64,000 nucleotides of DNA, from contig NC_049992.1 in assembly GCF_000003815.2 (NCBI RefSeq), positions 12,507,432 through 12,571,431 of the forward strand, given 5' to 3'. Each line of letters starts with the position of its first letter. Position 1 is the stretch's first letter. The notes under the pieces are model-generated. The model worked only from the letters and a program-made list of their open reading frames with translations. It searched no databases and was not told the DNA's origin. Positions 3,414-63,606 of the stretch are shown piece by piece. The position numbers and the translations under genes were made by a program. Source of the stretch: Branchiostoma floridae. Its lineage: Eukaryota; Chordata; Leptocardii; Amphioxiformes; Branchiostomatidae.

Positions 3414-5173
3414 CGTTATCCATGTTTATGAAGCTACAGACAGCAAATTCGATTCTCAAGAACTTGAATAAGTACACGACGTCGACGTGTTTTGATTGTC
3501 CACCATCTTGGAAATTTCAAAGTCTCGTACCCAGGACACTGTGAGATTCTAGTAAGGGGTCTAGTAATCTAAACTAGATAAGATAAGAAAGGAGAGAATA
3601 GCCAGGGTTCCAATTCCTTCATCATGCGACTTTAAACCGTGTCGTTTATAGCAAGCAGAAAATGTATCTAAACATAGTAGGGCAGGTAGAATTTTATGTA
3701 TGGCTCTTCTAAGATATTTGGTCCACCTATGAAAATCGTTTCCTGCAACAACTTCTTCCATATGGAGTGTGTAGTAGTACCATTTTATGATATGACAATG
3801 AGCTTTATTACTTTATTGCTCGTGCATCTCTACTGAGATGCATTAAACTTGAACATGTTTCAGTGTGGTTATAATTATAATTTTCTGTTTTTTCGTCTTA
3901 ACTTGGTGAAGTTTTTAAGCATTGTAGATTAACGTTAGGTCAGTAAATAACGGCCCATTATTTTTAAGTGTATGTCATTTTTAACATGCGGGGAACAGCA
4001 TTATGCATTTTCGTATGTAGCCATAACGAGAGCAGTAACGTTATCATATATTTTTCCATACAGAGAACAACATTACATATGTCTATATATAAACAGCGAG
4101 TGTGAAATGTATTTTGTTTCGTATCGTATACAGTGAATAGACTTTTATACATTCGACATTGCATAGGTAATCAGGACACACTTCCGACCTTTCACCTTTG
4201 TATACTCGGTCTGACCCCGACTCAGATCCACCATTTTCGGAAAGCCGTGGAGCAGGATATATTCTGTCCCTGCAATTATTACTGACGTCCTGTGCCATTT
4301 TTCAGCATTACAGCGAAATTCGTTGTTCAGTTTGGACCGTGGGTACGTGCAGTAAATGTAGGTTTCGTGTTCGGCGCGTTGCTAACGTTACCTTGAATTT
4401 CGTACATAAACCTCCTTGGCTTGATACAAAATATGTAAAACTGCTATGTGGCCGCTCGCGTCCGTGTTTGCCCAAAACAAGGAGCTTTTATAAAAGATTA
4501 TGATTAATGAAATTCTTTAACGCATCCTTTTAACGAGATAGATGCTATCCAGATGTCGGTCGATTTGCATGATACGTGTTGGACCTAGTCTGTGTTGTGT
4601 GTGTCCTGGAGCAGTATGTTACAATTGACTATAAATGCAGTATATCAGTTCTCACTCTATGCAGTATATCACTTCTCAGTAATCTATTAGAATTATCCTT
4701 AATGCACACATTAGCTAGGAAAATACGCCAAAAAATAGTTGCTCAAGCAACTGGATATGGTTTTGGAAACGGTCAGACGTTTCGGATAGCATCCACTATC
4801 CTTTGTCAGTGACACTGGGAAGCTAGGAAAATGTTATGAAAGTAATGTCAAAGCAGTCTAGCTCTATGATTGTATTAATAACTAGCGCCTCTTATTGGCC
4901 GGTCATACATTGCTGCGGGGAGTGGCCAAGCAGCCCCTGAAAGTGGAGTTTGCATTACACAGACAAGACAAAACAGACAGACAAGTTATGTATGATCATT
5001 GTTACACTGTCTTCACAATGCACTTAATGTCTATTCCCCCCCCCCCATTGCTCCTGTTCTATTACTAGTTTTTTTTTAAATTTCTGTGGATATAACTTTA
5101 TCTCATGTCCTGTGTTTTCATATATTATTAATATTGTCCCAACTAACTTGTGACTTTTTTTTTGTTATTTCAG
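3414..5173 (+). other. Intergenic or 5' intron sequence before the zinc-finger exon
   Basis: No convincing gene. Several short open frames on both strands show no conserved motif. A run of 11 C lies at 5036-5046. The stretch ends in a clear 3' splice site, a T-rich tract followed by GTTATTTCAG at 5164-5173. It therefore probably contains the end of an intron whose upstream non-coding exon I cannot place. Confidence 0.5.
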
Positions 5174-5179
5174 TTCAAG

Positions 5180-8100
5180 ATGGAAGAGTACAATAAACCA
5201 CACTGGACCAATATAGAGTATGCATCACTGACCAGTCATGACAGTCACTGCGCGGATCAGGCCAGCCCTGAGTATATAGGACCCAACTCTAATCAGTTCT
5301 GCAACATCATGGCTCATATGATGGCAGCAACAACGGGGACGCCTGGTCCTGGTGAACCAACGACTCGTATGATCGCTGAATCTGCAGATCACGGTGTGGT
5401 TGGATCTCGGGAGACAGCCAGGAACACAACAACAGAGCAGCTGGGATCACCAGATCACTTAACGTGCACAGTAACACAGCTAGACAAGCAGCCAAATCCT
5501 GATGAGAACACAACACAGGGAAAGCCCACAGACCAAGTCAGCAGTGAAGATGAGGAGGTTCACCAAACAGAAAGCCAAAACTCTGAAGGCCATGATCCAT
5601 GTACATCATCCTTTGAGATAGCACAGCCACCAAGTCAATCTGAGCAAGGCAAAACAGATGCAGATTCAGACACTGACTTAGCAAAGTACTCAGTATTGTA
5701 CGGAGGAAACCAAATCTTTATTTGCGATCTGTGTAGCCTCATGTTTATTACAGAGTCGGACCTAGCCCAGCACATCAAGACGCATCCAGATAAAAGTCCC
5801 GTGATAAAGCAGCCGCACAGGCGCAGACCTTATAAATCATGGTATGCCAACAGAGTGGAGGAGAACAATAAGAGTGGGTCTGGCGAGAAACAGTTTATTT
5901 GTAAAGAATGTGGCTTCAGCACTAATCACAGAGGCAAGCTGATAGCACATGCAAAGACCCATGTTGTCAAGAAGACATATAAATGTGATCAGTGCACGTT
6001 TTCTTCAGTCAAGAAAAAGACGATGGACAGGCACATGCTAAAACACGTACAGGAGGGCCCCTTCAAGTGCCGAGACTGTGCATTCACAACATCTGACATA
6101 AAAGACATGGAGAAACACATTGGGACCCACAAAGAGCGATACAATTGTGAACTGTGCCCTTTCTCTGCAGTTATGAAGAAGACTTTGGAAAGGCATCTTA
6201 AGATGAAACACGCCCAGGAAGATTCTACAGATTCAGAAGCTTCTGAGGCTATGGTTTGTGACGACTCAAGTGACGAGGCAGAAACAGACAATTCAGCAGA
6301 ACATACACTGGTATCAGAAAGCTGTGAAGGTGTGAATGATGACACACCAGAAAAGGAAACTTTGGAAAATGCTAATGCTATAGTTGAAAATTCTGAGGAG
6401 AATCCTTCTGCAAGCACAAATAGTTATCCTGACACGTCACACTCAGCAAGCGGAGATGAGCTTGGTGATGACCACGTACAGGAAGAGTGCCGAGACCTCA
6501 CGTTCACCACACCTGACAAAGAAGACAGGGAGAAACACATCGCGTTCACCACACCTGACAAAGAAGACAGGGAGAAACACATCGCGACCCACACAGAGTT
6601 GCCGGGCAAGCCATACAAGTGTAGTCTGTGCCGTTACTCTGCAGTTAAAGAGAAGACTTTGGAAAGGCACCTTAAGATGAAACATTCCCAGGAAGATTCT
6701 ACAGTGACAGAAGCTCCCGAACCTACAGACGTTGACAACTCAAGTGATGGGGCAGAAGCAGAAGATTCCCCAGAACAGTCTCTGATGTCAGAAAGCTGTG
6801 AAGGTGTGAATGCTAGCACTCCAGAAAAGGAGAAGTTGGAGGATACAGTAGTTGAAACTCCCAAGGATTGTGCCTCTACAAGCAAGGATAGTTTTCCTGA
6901 CATGTCAGACTCTGCAAGTGCAGACGAACTCGGTGATGATGTCACTGATTCTGACGAAGACTATATTCCTAAGCAGGCAGAAGTGGATGCTACAGAACAG
7001 GGTCATCTTGACGAAGATGAAGATGGTGTCCAAAACGTCCCTGACGAGACTCTGGCATGTAAGGAGCATGACTTTGTGACAGACAGCAACGAAAAGCCGA
7101 AAGCCCATGGAAAAAAAAGTGAAACATCTGGCGGGAAGCCACACAAGTGCAAGGACTGCAGTTATTCTACAGCATACAAGTCTGATCTCAGGCAACACAT
7201 GTACAAGCATAATGGGAAGTACCCTTTTGAGTGTAAGGTGTGTGGGTACAAGGCTGCAAGGCAGAAGGAAATGGTACAACACTCCAGGATTCATACTGGA
7301 GAAAAGCCCTTTAAGTGTGACCAGTGTGACTTTTCCACAGCACAAAGCAGCACATTGAAGGTGCACAAGATGAGACATAGTGGGGAGAAACAAAACACAG
7401 GCCACATGTTCAAGTGTAAGGAGTGTGACTATTCCACAGCACACAGGGCTGATCTTAGACAGCACATGTTCAGGCATAATGGGAAGTACCCATTTGTTTG
7501 CAAGGTGTGTGGGTACAAGGTAGGAAAGAGGAATGCCATGGTAATACATTCCAGGATTCATACAGGAGAGAAGCCCTTTAAGTGTGACCAGTGTGACTTC
7601 TCCACAACACAAAGAAATTCTTTAAAGGAGCACAAGATGAGACACAGTGGGGAGAAGCCACACATGTGCGATGTGTGCGGCTTAAGGTTTTACACCAAGC
7701 CTAACCTTAATGCTCACATGAATAGACACTTGGACATTAAGCCGGAATTAAAGAAGCCACATAAGTGTGACAAATGTGAGTATGCAACGGCACACAAGAC
7801 ACACTTGGCAATACATGTAGCACGCTACCACACTGGGGAAAAGCCCCACATGTGCGAGTACTGCGGGTATCGGACTGTAGATCGATCCAATCTTGCCACA
7901 CACAAGAAAACTCACACCGGAGAAAGACCATTCAAATGTGACCTGTGTGACTACAGCTCAGTGGCAAAGAAGAAGCTCCAACAGCACATGTCTAAGCACA
8001 CCGGTGAGAAACCATACATGTGCACGATGTGCGACTTTAGGACAGTGTACAAGCCTAGCCTTTTGTCGCACATGCAAAGGCACACGGGGGAGAAACCATT

Positions 8101-8521
8101 CAAGTGTGATCTCTGTGACTACCGGGCAGCCCAAAAGAGTAGCTTGAAGTCCCACATGGTTCAGCACACTGGTGAAAAATCACACATATGTCCTGACTGT
8201 GGACACAAAACAGCTCATCGTAGTAACCTTCTTTCTCATATGAGGAAAATACACAAAAAGGACATCGAGGAGAAACCATTGAAATGTGATCAATGTGACT
8301 ACCGGACAGCCAAAACGAGTAGCCTGAAGTCCCACATGGTTAAGCACACCGGTGAAAAACCACACGTATGTCCTGACTGTGGGCATAGAACGGCTCATCG
8401 ATGTAATCTTCTCTCTCATATGAGGAAAGTACATAAAAAGCACAAGACAGAGGTTTCCCCCGAGTTTCCAAACATGGCGGCGCTCCTGTTCCCTACAGGG
8501 AGCGGAGTTGAAAAACTGTAG
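5180..8521 (+). CDS. C2H2 zinc-finger protein, 21 fingers, 1113 aa
   Basis: One open exon. The start is the ATG six bases after a clear splice acceptor (TTATTTCAG|TTCAAGATGG), with A at -3 and G at +4. An upstream in-frame GTG at 5150 lies in the polypyrimidine tract and is not the start. Residues ~1-175 are acidic and Ser/Thr/Gln-rich. Fingers 1-6 are spread out and separated by acidic linkers. Fingers 7-21 form a nearly continuous array with TGEKP-type linkers. All 21 keep C-x2-C and H-x3-5-H. Multi-finger arrays of this kind normally bind DNA in the nucleus; there is no KRAB, SCAN or BTB domain, so the partner and target are unknown. Internal duplications are obvious (a finger-plus-acidic-linker module, and finger pairs in the array). 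A cysteine-less half finger is duplicated at 6502-6585. Orthology is not assignable by eye. Confidence 0.93.
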   Translation: MEEYNKPHWTNIEYASLTSHDSHCADQASPEYIGPNSNQFCNIMAHMMAATTGTPGPGEPTTRMIAESADHGVVGSRETARNTTTEQLGSPDHLTCTVTQLDKQPNPDENTTQGKPTDQVSSEDEEVHQTESQNSEGHDPCTSSFEIAQPPSQSEQGKTDADSDTDLAKYSVLYGGNQIFICDLCSLMFITESDLAQHIKTHPDKSPVIKQPHRRRPYKSWYANRVEENNKSGSGEKQFICKECGFSTNHRGKLIAHAKTHVVKKTYKCDQCTFSSVKKKTMDRHMLKHVQEGPFKCRDCAFTTSDIKDMEKHIGTHKERYNCELCPFSAVMKKTLERHLKMKHAQEDSTDSEASEAMVCDDSSDEAETDNSAEHTLVSESCEGVNDDTPEKETLENANAIVENSEENPSASTNSYPDTSHSASGDELGDDHVQEECRDLTFTTPDKEDREKHIAFTTPDKEDREKHIATHTELPGKPYKCSLCRYSAVKEKTLERHLKMKHSQEDSTVTEAPEPTDVDNSSDGAEAEDSPEQSLMSESCEGVNASTPEKEKLEDTVVETPKDCASTSKDSFPDMSDSASADELGDDVTDSDEDYIPKQAEVDATEQGHLDEDEDGVQNVPDETLACKEHDFVTDSNEKPKAHGKKSETSGGKPHKCKDCSYSTAYKSDLRQHMYKHNGKYPFECKVCGYKAARQKEMVQHSRIHTGEKPFKCDQCDFSTAQSSTLKVHKMRHSGEKQNTGHMFKCKECDYSTAHRADLRQHMFRHNGKYPFVCKVCGYKVGKRNAMVIHSRIHTGEKPFKCDQCDFSTTQRNSLKEHKMRHSGEKPHMCDVCGLRFYTKPNLNAHMNRHLDIKPELKKPHKCDKCEYATAHKTHLAIHVARYHTGEKPHMCEYCGYRTVDRSNLATHKKTHTGERPFKCDLCDYSSVAKKKLQQHMSKHTGEKPYMCTMCDFRTVYKPSLLSHMQRHTGEKPFKCDLCDYRAAQKSSLKSHMVQHTGEKSHICPDCGHKTAHRSNLLSHMRKIHKKDIEEKPLKCDQCDYRTAKTSSLKSHMVKHTGEKPHVCPDCGHRTAHRCNLLSHMRKVHKKHKTEVSPEFPNMAALLFPTGSGVEKL
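6502..6585 (+). repeat. 42-bp in-frame tandem duplication of a degenerate finger
   Basis: Two identical 42-bp copies (6502-6543, 6544-6585) encode FTTPDKEDREKHIA twice. The sequence resembles the second half of finger 4 (FTTSDIKDMEKHIGTH), but the second zinc-coordinating cysteine of the C-x2-C pair is gone. It is therefore a decayed finger, copied after decay. The perfect identity of the copies implies a recent event. Confidence 0.9.
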
Positions 8522-11372: not shown

Positions 11373-14300
11373 ATGAATTCAGCTCCCAGCAGCACTAGTA
11401 CCGGGAAACGGGAAGACAATCCCCTGGAGGCTATGACGTTACCGGCTTCGAACCCGCAACCGCCGGTTGGACTCAAAAAGGAAGACGTGGAAACCGGGGG
11501 TCAATCACAATCAGGCACGTCATCAGTACCGGCAGCGGGCGGCATGGAGGGTCTCTGGAACCGCCTGAGCGAGAGAACCAGGCTCCTTACCTGCTTCTTC
11601 GGCATCTTCGTGTGTTATTTCTACTACGGGATCGTGCAGGAGAAGATGTGAGTACGATAGGCACACGGAAGTAGATTTCATTTGGTAAAGAAAGCGTCGG
11701 AAATGGTGCACACTATTTCTGTGTATATGTGTCGGCTAGAAAGGGGGAGGGGGGCATATATCCGTAAACGTGCAATATTCTTGTACGATGGTGGACAGGA
11801 GGGATGCCATAAATTTCAAGTATAAAGTTAGCTTCACACACACGCATACACATGAATGTTTTTGGACTAAGAACCAGGACATGTAACCAAGGATAAAAGA
11901 TCCTTGATGTATTACAAACGTTGCAAACCAAGGTTGTAACGTGACATATTTTTTTAACGAATATTCAAACATCAGCCTCTTTGCTTTTCTTTATGATTAA
12001 TATTGCTGTGGGTGTGGGAAGATGATAGCGTTTGTATTTTCTGCAAGTTGTGTTTATGGTGATCATGTAACATGCAGGAATCTGTAATCTTACTAACTTA
12101 CAAGAAGATGAAATATGGCGGGTCTGCCGAAACACCTCAAACAATCTCAAATGACTCTAATATGCGATGTACATAAGACAACGACGTGTGGTGCTCTGGA
12201 TATATTCATGGAAAAAAAACCCTGCAGCAAGTCCTAACTATTTACCAATTATTTGGAGTTTGCCATAGAAGGTTGATGTCCAATGTACACTGCATATTAG
12301 AGCCGTTTGAGGTTCTTTGAGGTGTTTAACTTTAAGGCAGACGACGGTTGAAAACTTCCCACAGTGATTTAACAGAAAAAATACATTTGGGGATTATTGA
12401 AACCCTGCCAGTGCATACATGTGCAATTAGCCTGAGTACCATCCTCCGTAGTGACTGCCGTTAGCTTGCGCAAACGGATTGAGCCAGCAGTCACTACAGA
12501 GGATGGTACTCAAGCTATGTGCAAGTGGAACATTACTGGAATTGGGAATGACTTGATATGAGCACATGCATTATCATAAATTTTCCACAGAGAAATCAAT
12601 GATTAGAAAACAGTTTTATCAACAAAGTATTACGGTAACGGGAGGGGGCCATACTTCGACAGGGGTCCAAATTTCGACAGGTTTTAAAAATCATTGTTGC
12701 GGAGAAATGCATAGATGCCTGCACATGAGAAGTACACTAGCTGTAGACTAAACCTTGTTGTAAATAACTACAAAGACGGGGTATGTGTCGAAGTTAGCAA
12801 GTCCCACAGATAACGATTGAAAAACTTGCTCAAGTTTGACGCCTTCCGTGCAAGTTGACGAGCGAACGTATCGAGACCATGGACCGGGAAACTCTTGAAT
12901 TATTCTTCGCAAAATACGACATGTGAAAAAATACCACCACACATAGAAATGATGTTTATTAGCCTTCCGAAAAATAATACCTGTGTTCTGTTCTGCCTTT
13001 AACTGGGTTGGATAAACGGAGCTAAAATGATGCCACAATGTTCACGCAGTCGGGGCCCCGCCATTTTACTATCATGCACGAAGGCGGGCGAGCGATGCTC
13101 AACACGTTGAACTCAGTCAACCCGTCCGTCGAGCGACAAACATTCAAGAAAAATCGATCCCTACCGACTAAAAAATCCTGTAGCCATTGCTGCTGCCAAA
13201 AGACAGGATGAAAAGGCAATCAAGGAAGCCGAAAAGCGAAAATGCCATCACAGTCTAACGTAACAATGCGCTGCCGTTTTGCGGCAAGTTGGTCTCACCG
13301 TGAGAGGTAAACGTTTTAACACACCGTATTTGAATAAGTCGCGTAATACAAAATATGACCCATATTTGGTACAAAAAAATTATAATGAAGACTTTTAGTG
13401 CTATTCTATTTGCATAAGTTGTTTAAAAATGCACGGCGATGGTCTGGTTGTTACTATGTCGGAGTTTGGACCCCTTTTTTGTGTTGGAACGTTCTGCTAG
13501 GACGCAAGCCGAAAACCTGCCGTAAGTTTCGTGCGCTGTCAAAGTACAGTGCGGAAGGCTACTGTCAAATGAAATATATATCTGTACAGCTTCAATAACA
13601 GTTATATGGATGTATACAAGATCTTAACTTGTTTTTGATGAGTTCACTGTAAAATGTACATTGACAAAAGCCATGCGCATCCACTTAGAACGGGTGTCGA
13701 AGTATGGCCCCCTCCCGTTAACGTTATGTATACAGTAACAGATACTAGTGGGTAACTGGATTGTTACTGTGTTATAGCTGTTTAAACAGAGACTATTATG
13801 TTTTGATCACATTTTTTTATATGTAAATTGTAATACATGTAGTCATGTTTTCTGTCTTTTTTCAGAACAAGAGGAACATATGGCGAGGATAAAGAAAAGT
13901 TCACTTATGTCATGTCCCTGGTGTTCTTACAATGTATCGTCAATGCAGCTTTTGCCAAAATGAGTAAGTTACCAATCCTTGCTGTTATCTCTTCTGTTAG
14001 ACTTAGCAGGTGACTTCCATAATCTTTCAGTAGGTGTTTTAATTTTTTGGGGTTCCACTTGTTATCATTTCTTAAGTCTTTTCTTTGAATTCATATCGGG
14101 CCAAAAATATATATGAACATATTGGCCTGACTTTAGAGATACATCTATCCATGTATATCTATCATATATATTTATTAATTCCTATGTTGCTGTTTTTGTT
14201 TGCAGTGTGTTACTTTGCAGCTCCTGGTGTCAATGACACTACACCAAACTGGCTCTACGGAATATGTTCAACTACCTACATGGGAGCCATGCTGGCCAGT

Positions 14301-17300
14301 AACCAGGCACTACAACATGTTAACTACCCTACACAGGTAAGGGTTACTATTAACCAGGCACTACAACATGTTAACTACCCTACACAGGTAAGGGTTACTA
14401 TTAACCAGGCACTACAACATGTTAACTACCCTACACAGGTAAGGGTTACTATTAACCAGGCACTACAACATGTTAACTATCCTACACAGGTAAGGGTTAC
14501 TATTAACCAGGCACTACAACATGTTAACTACCCTACACAGGTAAGGGTTACTATTAACCAGGCACTACAACATGTTAACTACCCTACACAGGTAAGGGTT
14601 ACTATTAACCATGCACTACAACATGTTAACTACCCTACACAGGTAAGGGTTACTATTAACCAGGCACTACAACATGTTAACTACCCTACACAGGTAAGGG
14701 TTACTATTAATCAAGCACTACAACATGTTAACTACCCTACATGTGTAAGAGTTACTATCGATCATGCATTACAACGTTAACCAGCACTAGTAACAATGCT
14801 ACACAGGTAAGTAGGGTTTACCACTAGTATTAACCAGGCACTACAACACACAGGAATGAGTATATGCATTTTACGTACATGTGAAATAATTTTTAATTCT
14901 AAACTGGGATTTGAATTAAAAATGCAAGCCATGGGATTGTTGCATGTCTATATCAACTGTAGAAAAAGCATTACATATTTTAGGCTTTGTATTAAGAATC
15001 TAACTTGATTTGATGTTGATCTGTTTTACCTTTGCATTTTGTACTTGTAGGTATTAGGGAAGTCCTGTAAACCTATCCCAGTGCTGATCTTGGGCGTGCT
15101 GCTGGCCAGGAAAAGATACCCCCTCTTAAAGTACCTGTTTGTACTGCTCATCGTGGCAGGGGTGGCCATCTTTGTTTACAAGGACAACGTGCAGGCAAAG
15201 GCAGACGACCACATCTTCGGCTGGGGAGAAATTCTTTTGGTAAGTCGAAGACACCCTTTATGTTAAAGACAATTCCATTCTATGTTTATTTGTCAGTGAG
15301 TTTGGTAACATCAGTGATCAGGGCTTGAAACACTGGTTGCATATGTGAGAATGAGCAACATACATGGTAATTGTGTGCAAGTTATGGTACTTAGTAATGA
15401 ACAAGTTCAAAGGCAAAGCATTATACTATGTAGTATACTGATACATTGTGTAACTTGCTTTCCCCTGAAGGCAGCCTTGATTAGTCATGCAGTCTTCTTA
15501 CTTTGCCCAAAGGAAGGGAAATACTGTCTTGGGCTTGTCTGTCTTTATGCATTTCTGTGATTCCAATATGCACAATGTAGTGACATCCTTCAATTGTTGG
15601 TGCCACTATTTATTTCTGGTCAGTGGAAGGGACTCCAAGGCAGTATGACTATGAGTGTGTCTTGGTGTGTCTTCCCTTCTAACCCTGTTGCTCCTCTGGA
15701 TAACTCAGCAACTTGGTCCAGCCATCTCTTTCTTGGTCTGCCTGCTGGCTGTTTTTATTCAGGTGTCCATTTACATGAAAGATTCTTATTACAGCTTTTG
15801 TCTTCTGGCATCCTGTGCAAGTGTCCAAACCACCCCAGTTTATTTCTTCTAACTAATGCCAGTATATGCTCAACTGGCAGCATTTGACGGATGACTTTAT
15901 TGTGTCTTGGTGTGTTTGTTGTTATTTGAATATTGTAGAGCAGGGGTCTAGCCAGCGTCCGTTTTTCCGTCAATTGACGGAAATTTGCTGCGTCTGACGG
16001 AAAAATTTTAAAACCAATCCGTCAACCTTGACGGACAAAAATCCTTGATGGAAGCTACAGGCGGCTTGGGGACGCCGTCCACGGCCGTAAAAGCCACACA
16101 CTGTTTGTTTTGCTATTGTTATGATTGTTGACAATGTGTGTCGGCGCCCTTTCGCATACGATAATCTCATTAAAACCCGTTTTTCAAGGTCTCAGTTCAG
16201 TCCTTCTAATTAATTTTCGCGGTTTTCGCGACGATTGTAATTGGCTGACGGAAAAAAATTTCGAGCTGGCTAAAGCCCTGTTGTAGAGTGACAGGATGTG
16301 AGGCAGAGGATGGTGTATTGGATACTGGCAGGATGGGAAGGTTGGTTTGGCCTGGGTCCAAAGTTGTAACCTCAGGCTGGTAGGATGGGATGGTTGTCCT
16401 TGCCCGAGTCCAAAGTTGTCCCTGCTTGCTGGCAGCAAAATGCGTAGACAAAATTAGCAATAAATTCTCAATAAAGAAGAAAACAATAAATTTACAAAAA
16501 TGTATGACACAGATTTCTTGTTTCCTTTGCTCTCCTCACAGTTAGCATCCCTGACCATGGATGGTCTGACTGGAGTGTCCCAGGAGAAGATGAGAGGACA
16601 ACACCAGACCAACTCTCACTACATGATGTACAACATGAACTTCTGGTCCATCGGCATCTTAGCTGTCTGTAAGTTTTGTCTGTTTTGGTATAGCTACAAG
16701 ATAATGTTATTATCATGACTAGCACATAAAAAAATTATCATAGTATAATGCAGAAATTTCAAAATATCTATGTGGAGGACTAGTTAATATTTTTGTGGAC
16801 TAATTATAGGATAGTTTTTCATACTAGTATTGGTTGTTCCAAGTCTATTTTGTTGTGTATAAGATTTTTTCTATTTTATTTTTGTAGGCATTGGAGTGAC
16901 CGGGGAAGTCTTCTCTTTCCTAAAGTTCCTTGAGAAGTACCCATATGTGCTGGGGAACATGTTTCTCTTCTCCATCACCAGTGCACTGGGACAGGTAAGT
17001 AGGAATCTTGGTGTCTGTGTTTCCGGAATAATTGTGATTAGTATAATTTAAGAACAGATGGATGGCTTGTAATGATATTTTGTATGTGGATAGATATTGG
17101 AAAGGTGAACGTTAAGGTCAAGTTTGGGCCTCCTTGCAGGTATCTTTGGCACTGCAGTATAACTTCAATTATATCTTTTGTCTTGGTTATACCTGTTTTT
17201 CATCCACTTCCCCTAGCTCTTCATCTTTGTGACGGTGACAAACTTTGGCCCGCTGACGTGTTCGATCATCACGACCACGCGGAAGTTCTTCACGATCCTC

Positions 17301-22240: not shown

Positions 22241-63606
<41,366 letters not shown>

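Follow-up and report, generated by a model that had tools for sequence, protein, structure and literature searches.

Minisatellites that lie over exon-intron borders, termed 'mirages', have been described in a number of amphioxus genes, including those of the globins BflGb6 and BflGb9 (PMC3087553), troponin C and PGBD5 (PMC3902484), with Adh3 cited as the first case (Canestro 2002; PMC3087553). They show a pattern in which the centre of the array is homogeneous and the edge is diverged (PMC3087553), and their copy numbers vary: in PGBD5 these differ between assemblies or haplotypes (2 or 7, 3 or 6; PMC3902484), and 6 and 3 copies are given for BflGb6 (PMC3087553). In the passages of both papers that deal with splicing, mirages are said to leave it undisturbed, so that a regular mRNA is made (PMC3087553, PMC3902484), although the former allows for cryptic use of the repeated AG/GT signals (PMC3087553).

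Two further systems bear on such arrays. In Rogers' model, tandem duplication of AGGT is a route to intron gain, and the cases cited in this context are ATP2A1 and a gene of fission yeast in which a 24-bp AGGT segment is present in multiple copies (PMC4974935), while in intron 4 of DOK7 nearby donors can both be used (PMC5585400).

Here we describe an array at the border of exon 3 and intron 3 of the amphioxus gene SLC35B1. Like the mirages, it is a minisatellite across an exon-intron border with repeated AG/GT signals, a homogenised centre and a diverged edge, and it is a further instance of this known amphioxus kind. As in Rogers' model, its tandem AG/GT-bearing copies create potential GT...AG introns inside the array; in contrast to the intron gain envisaged there, there is no sign of an additional intron position, the unit is weak on its acceptor side, and exons 3 and 4 remain in frame when joined via the first donor. 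It shares with DOK7 the presence of closely spaced donors that compete for one acceptor, but whereas DOK7 has two different donors 11 nt apart, SLC35B1 has eight identical ones at a fixed spacing of 51 nt. We favour, with a probability of roughly 0.72, a reading in which this mirage is spliced mostly at its first donor, the remainder of the array being intron, with possible leaky in-frame isoforms.

The SLC35B1 gene and its array of splice donors

The window, by which we mean the whole stretch of 64,000 nucleotides that was analysed, holds a complete SLC35B1 gene, for which a spliced model gave seven exons, GT-AG introns throughout and a product of 379 aa (Table 1). A PDB search with this model matched human SLC35B1 (AXER; PDB 9grz) over residues 65-374 (E 1.5e-124). 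The 16 residues around the splice junction are identical in the two proteins, and the TM4 lysines K117 and K120 (human numbering) are present in the amphioxus model, the alignment containing GKSCKPIPV. The N end of the model is some 57 residues longer than that of human SLC35B1 (the alignment starts at 65 vs 8), its start codon being our choice. Exon 4 has a single match genome-wide, and the array is placed once in the assembly.

Table 1. Position of the window in the genome, and features of SLC35B1 and its donor array in window coordinates.
Feature	Position	Strand	Detail or evidence
Window	C14:12507432-12571431		genome of 513,431,437 bases in 431 contigs
SLC35B1 exon 1, coding part	11373..11647	+	donor GAT/GTGAGT; spliced model with GT-AG introns
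SLC35B1 exon 2	13866..13963	+	spliced model
SLC35B1 exon 3 as ended by donor 1	14206..14336	+	final 36 bases form the exonic portion of copy 1
Eight near-identical 51-bp units, each with intact CAG/GTAAGG donor	14301..14708	+	
Degenerate ninth unit, donor decayed to TGT/GTAAGAG (GT at 14745)	14709..14759	+	
Relic tail: decayed units with small insertions/deletions	14760..14848	+	alignment to unit
In-frame TAA reached via donor at 14807	14778..14780	+	
Relic donor CAG/GTAAGT (then A)	14804..14812, GT at 14807	+	9/9 consensus positions
SLC35B1 exon 4, UAA transporter family	15051..15239	+	spliced model; PF08449, E 2.8e-11
SLC35B1 exon 5	16542..16668	+	spliced model
SLC35B1 exon 6	16888..16994	+	spliced model
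SLC35B1 exon 7 including stop codon	17217..17429	+	spliced model

TRF delimited the array at 14300-14758, with a period of 51, 9.0 copies and 97% matches. The original prediction had placed a 51-bp unit across the end of exon 3 and the start of intron 3 and had counted eight CAG/GTAAGG donors 51 bases apart, and both points were borne out: each unit comprises 36 exonic and 15 intronic bases, and the eight donors have their GT at 14337, 14388, 14439, 14490, 14541, 14592, 14643 and 14694 (14337 + 51k, k = 0-7). With the register taken from 14301, there is no difference among copies 1, 2, 3, 5, 6 and 8, a single base differs in copy 4 and in copy 7, and seven bases differ in copy 9; the 5' edge of the array is undiverged and its inner copies are homogeneous, while its 3' edge is decayed. 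Beyond the ninth unit the tail aligns to the unit as far as about 14848, with a score of 68 vs a maximum of 26 in 300 single-base shuffles, and the relic donor within this tail is both the best consensus match in the array and the donor closest to exon 4. Upstream, a weak likeness of positions 14251-14281 (approximate limits) to the unit (score 28) lies in another frame and was taken as chance.

The same window contains several other features. On the minus strand, a 1195-aa frame (33136-36720) with endonuclease and reverse transcriptase belongs to a non-LTR retrotransposon, and beside a reverse-transcriptase frame lies a 956-aa open frame (37014-39881) with matches to DnaJ, GDSL-lipase and, below cut-off, PHD. 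The latter resembles the first ORF of LINEs of the CR1 type; its DnaJ domain is unexpected. An open frame at 23852-24784, also on the minus strand, matches the Sfi1 family. On the plus strand, a 1124-aa frame (5147-8518) encodes many C2H2 zinc fingers and includes a 180-bp unit repeated 2.0 times (8089-8444). A block of tandem arrays at 3-2680 consists of 171 bp x 6.0, ACCCTA x 9.0, 203 bp x 3.8 and 226 bp x 1.9. An Rfam search of the window returned nothing at the gathering score.

Arrays of phased donors across the genome

The published mirage family could be followed in this genome at C6:27.45 Mb, its best match to the class III alcohol dehydrogenase family (E 2.9e-37 for one exon and, being a single exon, under the family cut-off). 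Here, arrays are found at exon borders on the acceptor side (59 bp x 6.9) and at the donor (33 bp x 9.8), which points to an amphioxus genome. Read-through of the donor array ends at once in TGA (...LCQKIR, then stop), so only the first donor can serve there. The SLC35B1 unit, a multiple of three bases, differs from this Adh3 donor array in being open through eight intact donors. A length divisible by three is not unique to SLC35B1 among mirages, since the reported PGBD5 units, of 60 and 108 bp, share it (PMC3902484).

We then surveyed the genome with a pattern of three AGGTRAG sites 41-71 bases apart; the counts are of overlapping matches, to which a long array contributes repeatedly, and units of less than 41 bp are picked up as multiples of their length. 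The pattern had 7851 genome-wide matches (361 for its backwards form), and a control in which one base was changed, AGGTYAG, had 1422 (625 for its backwards form, so that non-donor motifs vary too). As single motifs the three are about equally common (AGGTRAG 45, AGGTYAG 49, backwards form 43) in 20 random stretches of 10 kb, drawn from contigs C2, C6, C10 and C14 with 9807 N included, and the excess of AGGTRAG therefore lies in tandem copies. When the first 100 matches listed for each motif, all on C1 from its start, were grouped by eye, AGGTRAG gave 16 arrays in 2.40 Mb and AGGTYAG 15-16 in 5.98 Mb, an excess of about 2.5-fold by array per Mb in these non-random stretches, as compared with 5.5-fold by match. 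Scaling 16 arrays per 100 matches to 7851 yields, as a rough guess, some 1250 arrays, many of which need not touch an exon. Donor arrays are thus frequent but not dense in the genome: three phased AGGTRAG sites were found in none of 30 arrays in the random 200 kb, in one of seven in the window and in one of eight in the Adh3 region, and six rearranged motifs gave no phased arrays in any of these three sets.

Coding exons at the edges of the 16 sampled AGGTRAG arrays were sought by giving Pfam 20 of the 32 possible edge peptides (16 loci, two strands each) at a length of up to 80 residues; the frame at L034 was picked by eye and was not the longest, and the start points at L030, L041 and L042 were set by hand. 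Three of the 16 arrays had a Pfam-supported coding exon at the edge above cut-off, namely dynein AAA_7 (L031), dynein AAA_8 (L033) and TALPID3 (L034), with 0, 11 and 2 residues, respectively, between the end of the match and the donor. Two more had matches below cut-off (L041, CMIP6, at the first donor; L032, AAA_16/AAA_7 on the other strand, at the acceptor side), and the other 15 of the 20 peptides had no Pfam match; at L030, L040 and L044, exons were recognised by inspection alone. The units of the five arrays with a Pfam edge match measure 23, 43, 50/46, 43/50 and 47 bp. No unit among these is divisible by three, so the function of those genes should depend on reliable choice of a single site. 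Across all 16 arrays, three units counted by eye are multiples of three (L029, L038 and L044; P of 3 or fewer 0.17, with L030, whose spacing is 30/31, scored as not a multiple), and this small sample gives no general sign of frame being kept in donor arrays.

Some of the sampled loci are of interest in themselves. At C1:229400-232100 (L031 and L032), both ends of a single dynein intron seem to bear arrays, a 43-bp one at the donor and a 47-bp one at the acceptor, the AAA_7 pieces on the two sides ending and beginning at profile positions 39 and 36; the arrays found at 221 kb of C1, where a dynein was recognised by eye, and at 239 kb, with dynein AAA_8, may belong to that gene as well. At C1:427860-428500, on the minus strand, L044 is a second open in-frame donor array, with 30-bp units reading ...SYLATQVSYLATTSPQVSYLATTSPQ and an exon identified by eye only.

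These data suggest that the genome holds many donor arrays, more than the handful in the papers. The kind itself is already known from those papers, and the genome-wide excess of phased donors is new as far as searched: no genome-wide count of splice-site arrays was found in the open PMC literature, the search on which this novelty rests, in which the papers listed for amphioxus tandem repeats were judged by title. Tandem repeats have been tallied per scaffold across the draft amphioxus genome, in passages that leave splice sites untreated (PMC2632668), and a report on the amphioxus huntingtin gene mentions tandem repeats and assembly errors (PMC2206037). In the same literature, SLC35B1 together with Branchiostoma returned nothing related by title, and VNTR together with splice-donor returned none.

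Reading frame of the array and the SLC35B1 protein

The 51-nt unit is open in the frame of the exon for 0-8 retained units. Donors 1-8 are predicted to give full-length, in-frame and stop-free products of 379 to 498 aa, and the weak ninth donor an open product of 515 aa. The donor at 14807 is predicted to bring in the TAA at 14778, as the original prediction had stated for the donor at 14804-14809, and so to end the protein at residue 315, with four exon junctions downstream. That prediction had also envisaged 0 to 7 extra copies of one 17-residue peptide; the 17 codons are indeed in frame and free of stops, but the eight peptide units are not all equal, since in copy 7 an H replaces the first Q of NQALQ. 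When translated through the repeat, the peptide matched Plectin, DUF2795 and other Pfam families, and we set these matches aside as probable artefacts of the repeat.

If donors 1-8 were all used to an appreciable extent, SLC35B1 proteins with 0-7 extra 17-residue units would be made, and the array would generate a ladder of isoforms, as had originally been proposed. That all eight predicted products are open and in frame is in keeping with this idea. However, 2958 of the 9000 possible border-spanning units at exon 3 of SLC35B1 are in frame and open by chance and units divisible by three occur in three of the 16 sampled arrays. That the SLC35B1 unit is open thus looks like an accident with odds of one in three rather than a sign of a selected ladder. 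The differences between copies lean in the other direction: in the read-through frame, six of the 11 distinct ones are synonymous where 24-29% would be expected (P 0.026, 0.045 or 0.072 depending on transition weight; three of the other changes are adjacent and maybe one event), as compared with 3/11 and 2/11 in the other two frames. This is the lean that a translated ladder predicts, but purifying selection on the real exon before spreading would predict the same.

The position of the junction in the protein likewise cuts both ways. Alignment to human SLC35B1 places it between the residues matching Q113 and V114, in TM4a. In this carrier, N109 is reported to form a luminal gate contact, K117A to be inactive, K120 to contact phosphates and Q113F, at the junction itself, to leave about 25% transport (PMC12267056). 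Taken literally, 17 extra residues would separate the gate residue N109 from K117 and K120, which speaks against a ladder. On the other hand, because the unit repeats 12 residues, the insertion point can slide over 12 identical residues, from Q113/V114 back to N102 (human numbering). With such sliding, the last copy could rebuild the start of TM4a, the added residues would loop out close to the luminal turn between TM3 and TM4a, by the luminal gate, and the predicted longer isoforms might be able to fold. Taken together with the passages on published mirages, in which splicing is undisturbed, the evidence weighs against appreciable use of all eight donors, which we consider unlikely.

Choice among the donors

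The reading that we prefer, a mirage spliced mostly at its first donor, can be set out as follows. A tandem duplication of a segment straddling the border of exon 3 and intron 3 would have founded the minisatellite, and slippage or unequal exchange probably spread the array and homogenised it. Splicing would mostly take the first, exon-side donor (GT at 14337), so that copies 2 onward would form the start of a longer intron; splicing of this kind would allow the array to be tolerated and hence to survive. Should donors 2-8 be used now and then, the result would be a longer protein in frame rather than a nonsense message, and such longer isoforms, if present, are most likely minor noise. Against this reading, donors 1-8 are identical with near-identical flanks, and nothing local singles out donor 1; by analogy, nearby donors can both be usable, as in DOK7 (PMC5585400), and mirage repeats can be possible cryptic sites (PMC3087553). 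At the opposite end of the array, the relic donor at 14807 has the full consensus, lies nearest to exon 4 and ends the protein, so that a rule simply favouring the intron-side donor would disable the gene.

This same relic donor raises the possibility that some splicing goes to 14807, in which case the stop in the extended exon 3 would cause the message to be degraded and SLC35B1 output to be damped, perhaps according to copy number. Its match at 9/9 consensus positions, its proximity to exon 4 and the four exon junctions that follow the stop at residue 315 are all compatible with such a poison site. Yet exon 4 was found once in the genome, and an ER ATP carrier is probably essential, which would limit the loss that can be tolerated; we regard a regulatory role of this kind as improbable.

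It is also conceivable that a retained unit, being a GT...AG segment, is removed by a second round of splicing, with donor 1 as its 5' site and the CAG that closes the last retained unit as its acceptor, which would restore the normal message. The exonic parts of copies 1-8 end in ACACAG and continue with GTAAGG, the geometry of AGGT duplication in Rogers' model (PMC4974935), but the acceptor is weak, with 10/16 pyrimidines vs 12-15 in the six real acceptors of the gene, 24% of the 3781 AGs on the plus strand of the window do as well, and an intron of 51 nt would be very short, all of which makes such self-correction very improbable. An assembly artefact, in which the copy number is wrong or the array collapsed or expanded, would have precedents in the published mirages that vary between assemblies or haplotypes (PGBD5, PMC3902484; BflGb6, PMC3087553), but it is equally hard to credit given the private differences of copies 4, 7 and 9 and the decayed tail, which make the array real even if its length is inexact. 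By the same mirage precedent, copy-number polymorphism at the SLC35B1 array, which had been expected from the outset, would be plausible.

Returning to the mirage with a mostly used first donor, a broader and much more speculative picture, which we think rather unlikely as a whole, would be one in which splice donors are preferred minisatellite seeds across the genome, with arrays of the order of a thousand, a strict first-donor rule generally holds, and an open in-frame subset that includes SLC35B1 leaks a copy-number-dependent protein ladder (in SLC35B1, one that would rise by 17 residues per step at the luminal gate of this ATP carrier of the ER), the proteome thus varying with the length of the allele. 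Whichever way the donors are chosen, eight identical donors with near-identical flanks constitute a natural experiment on the choice made by the spliceosome, in which position is the main difference. Should donors 2-8 not leak, many genes together would demonstrate a strict first-donor rule; should they leak, the length of a conserved ER carrier for ATP would be set by that of the allele.
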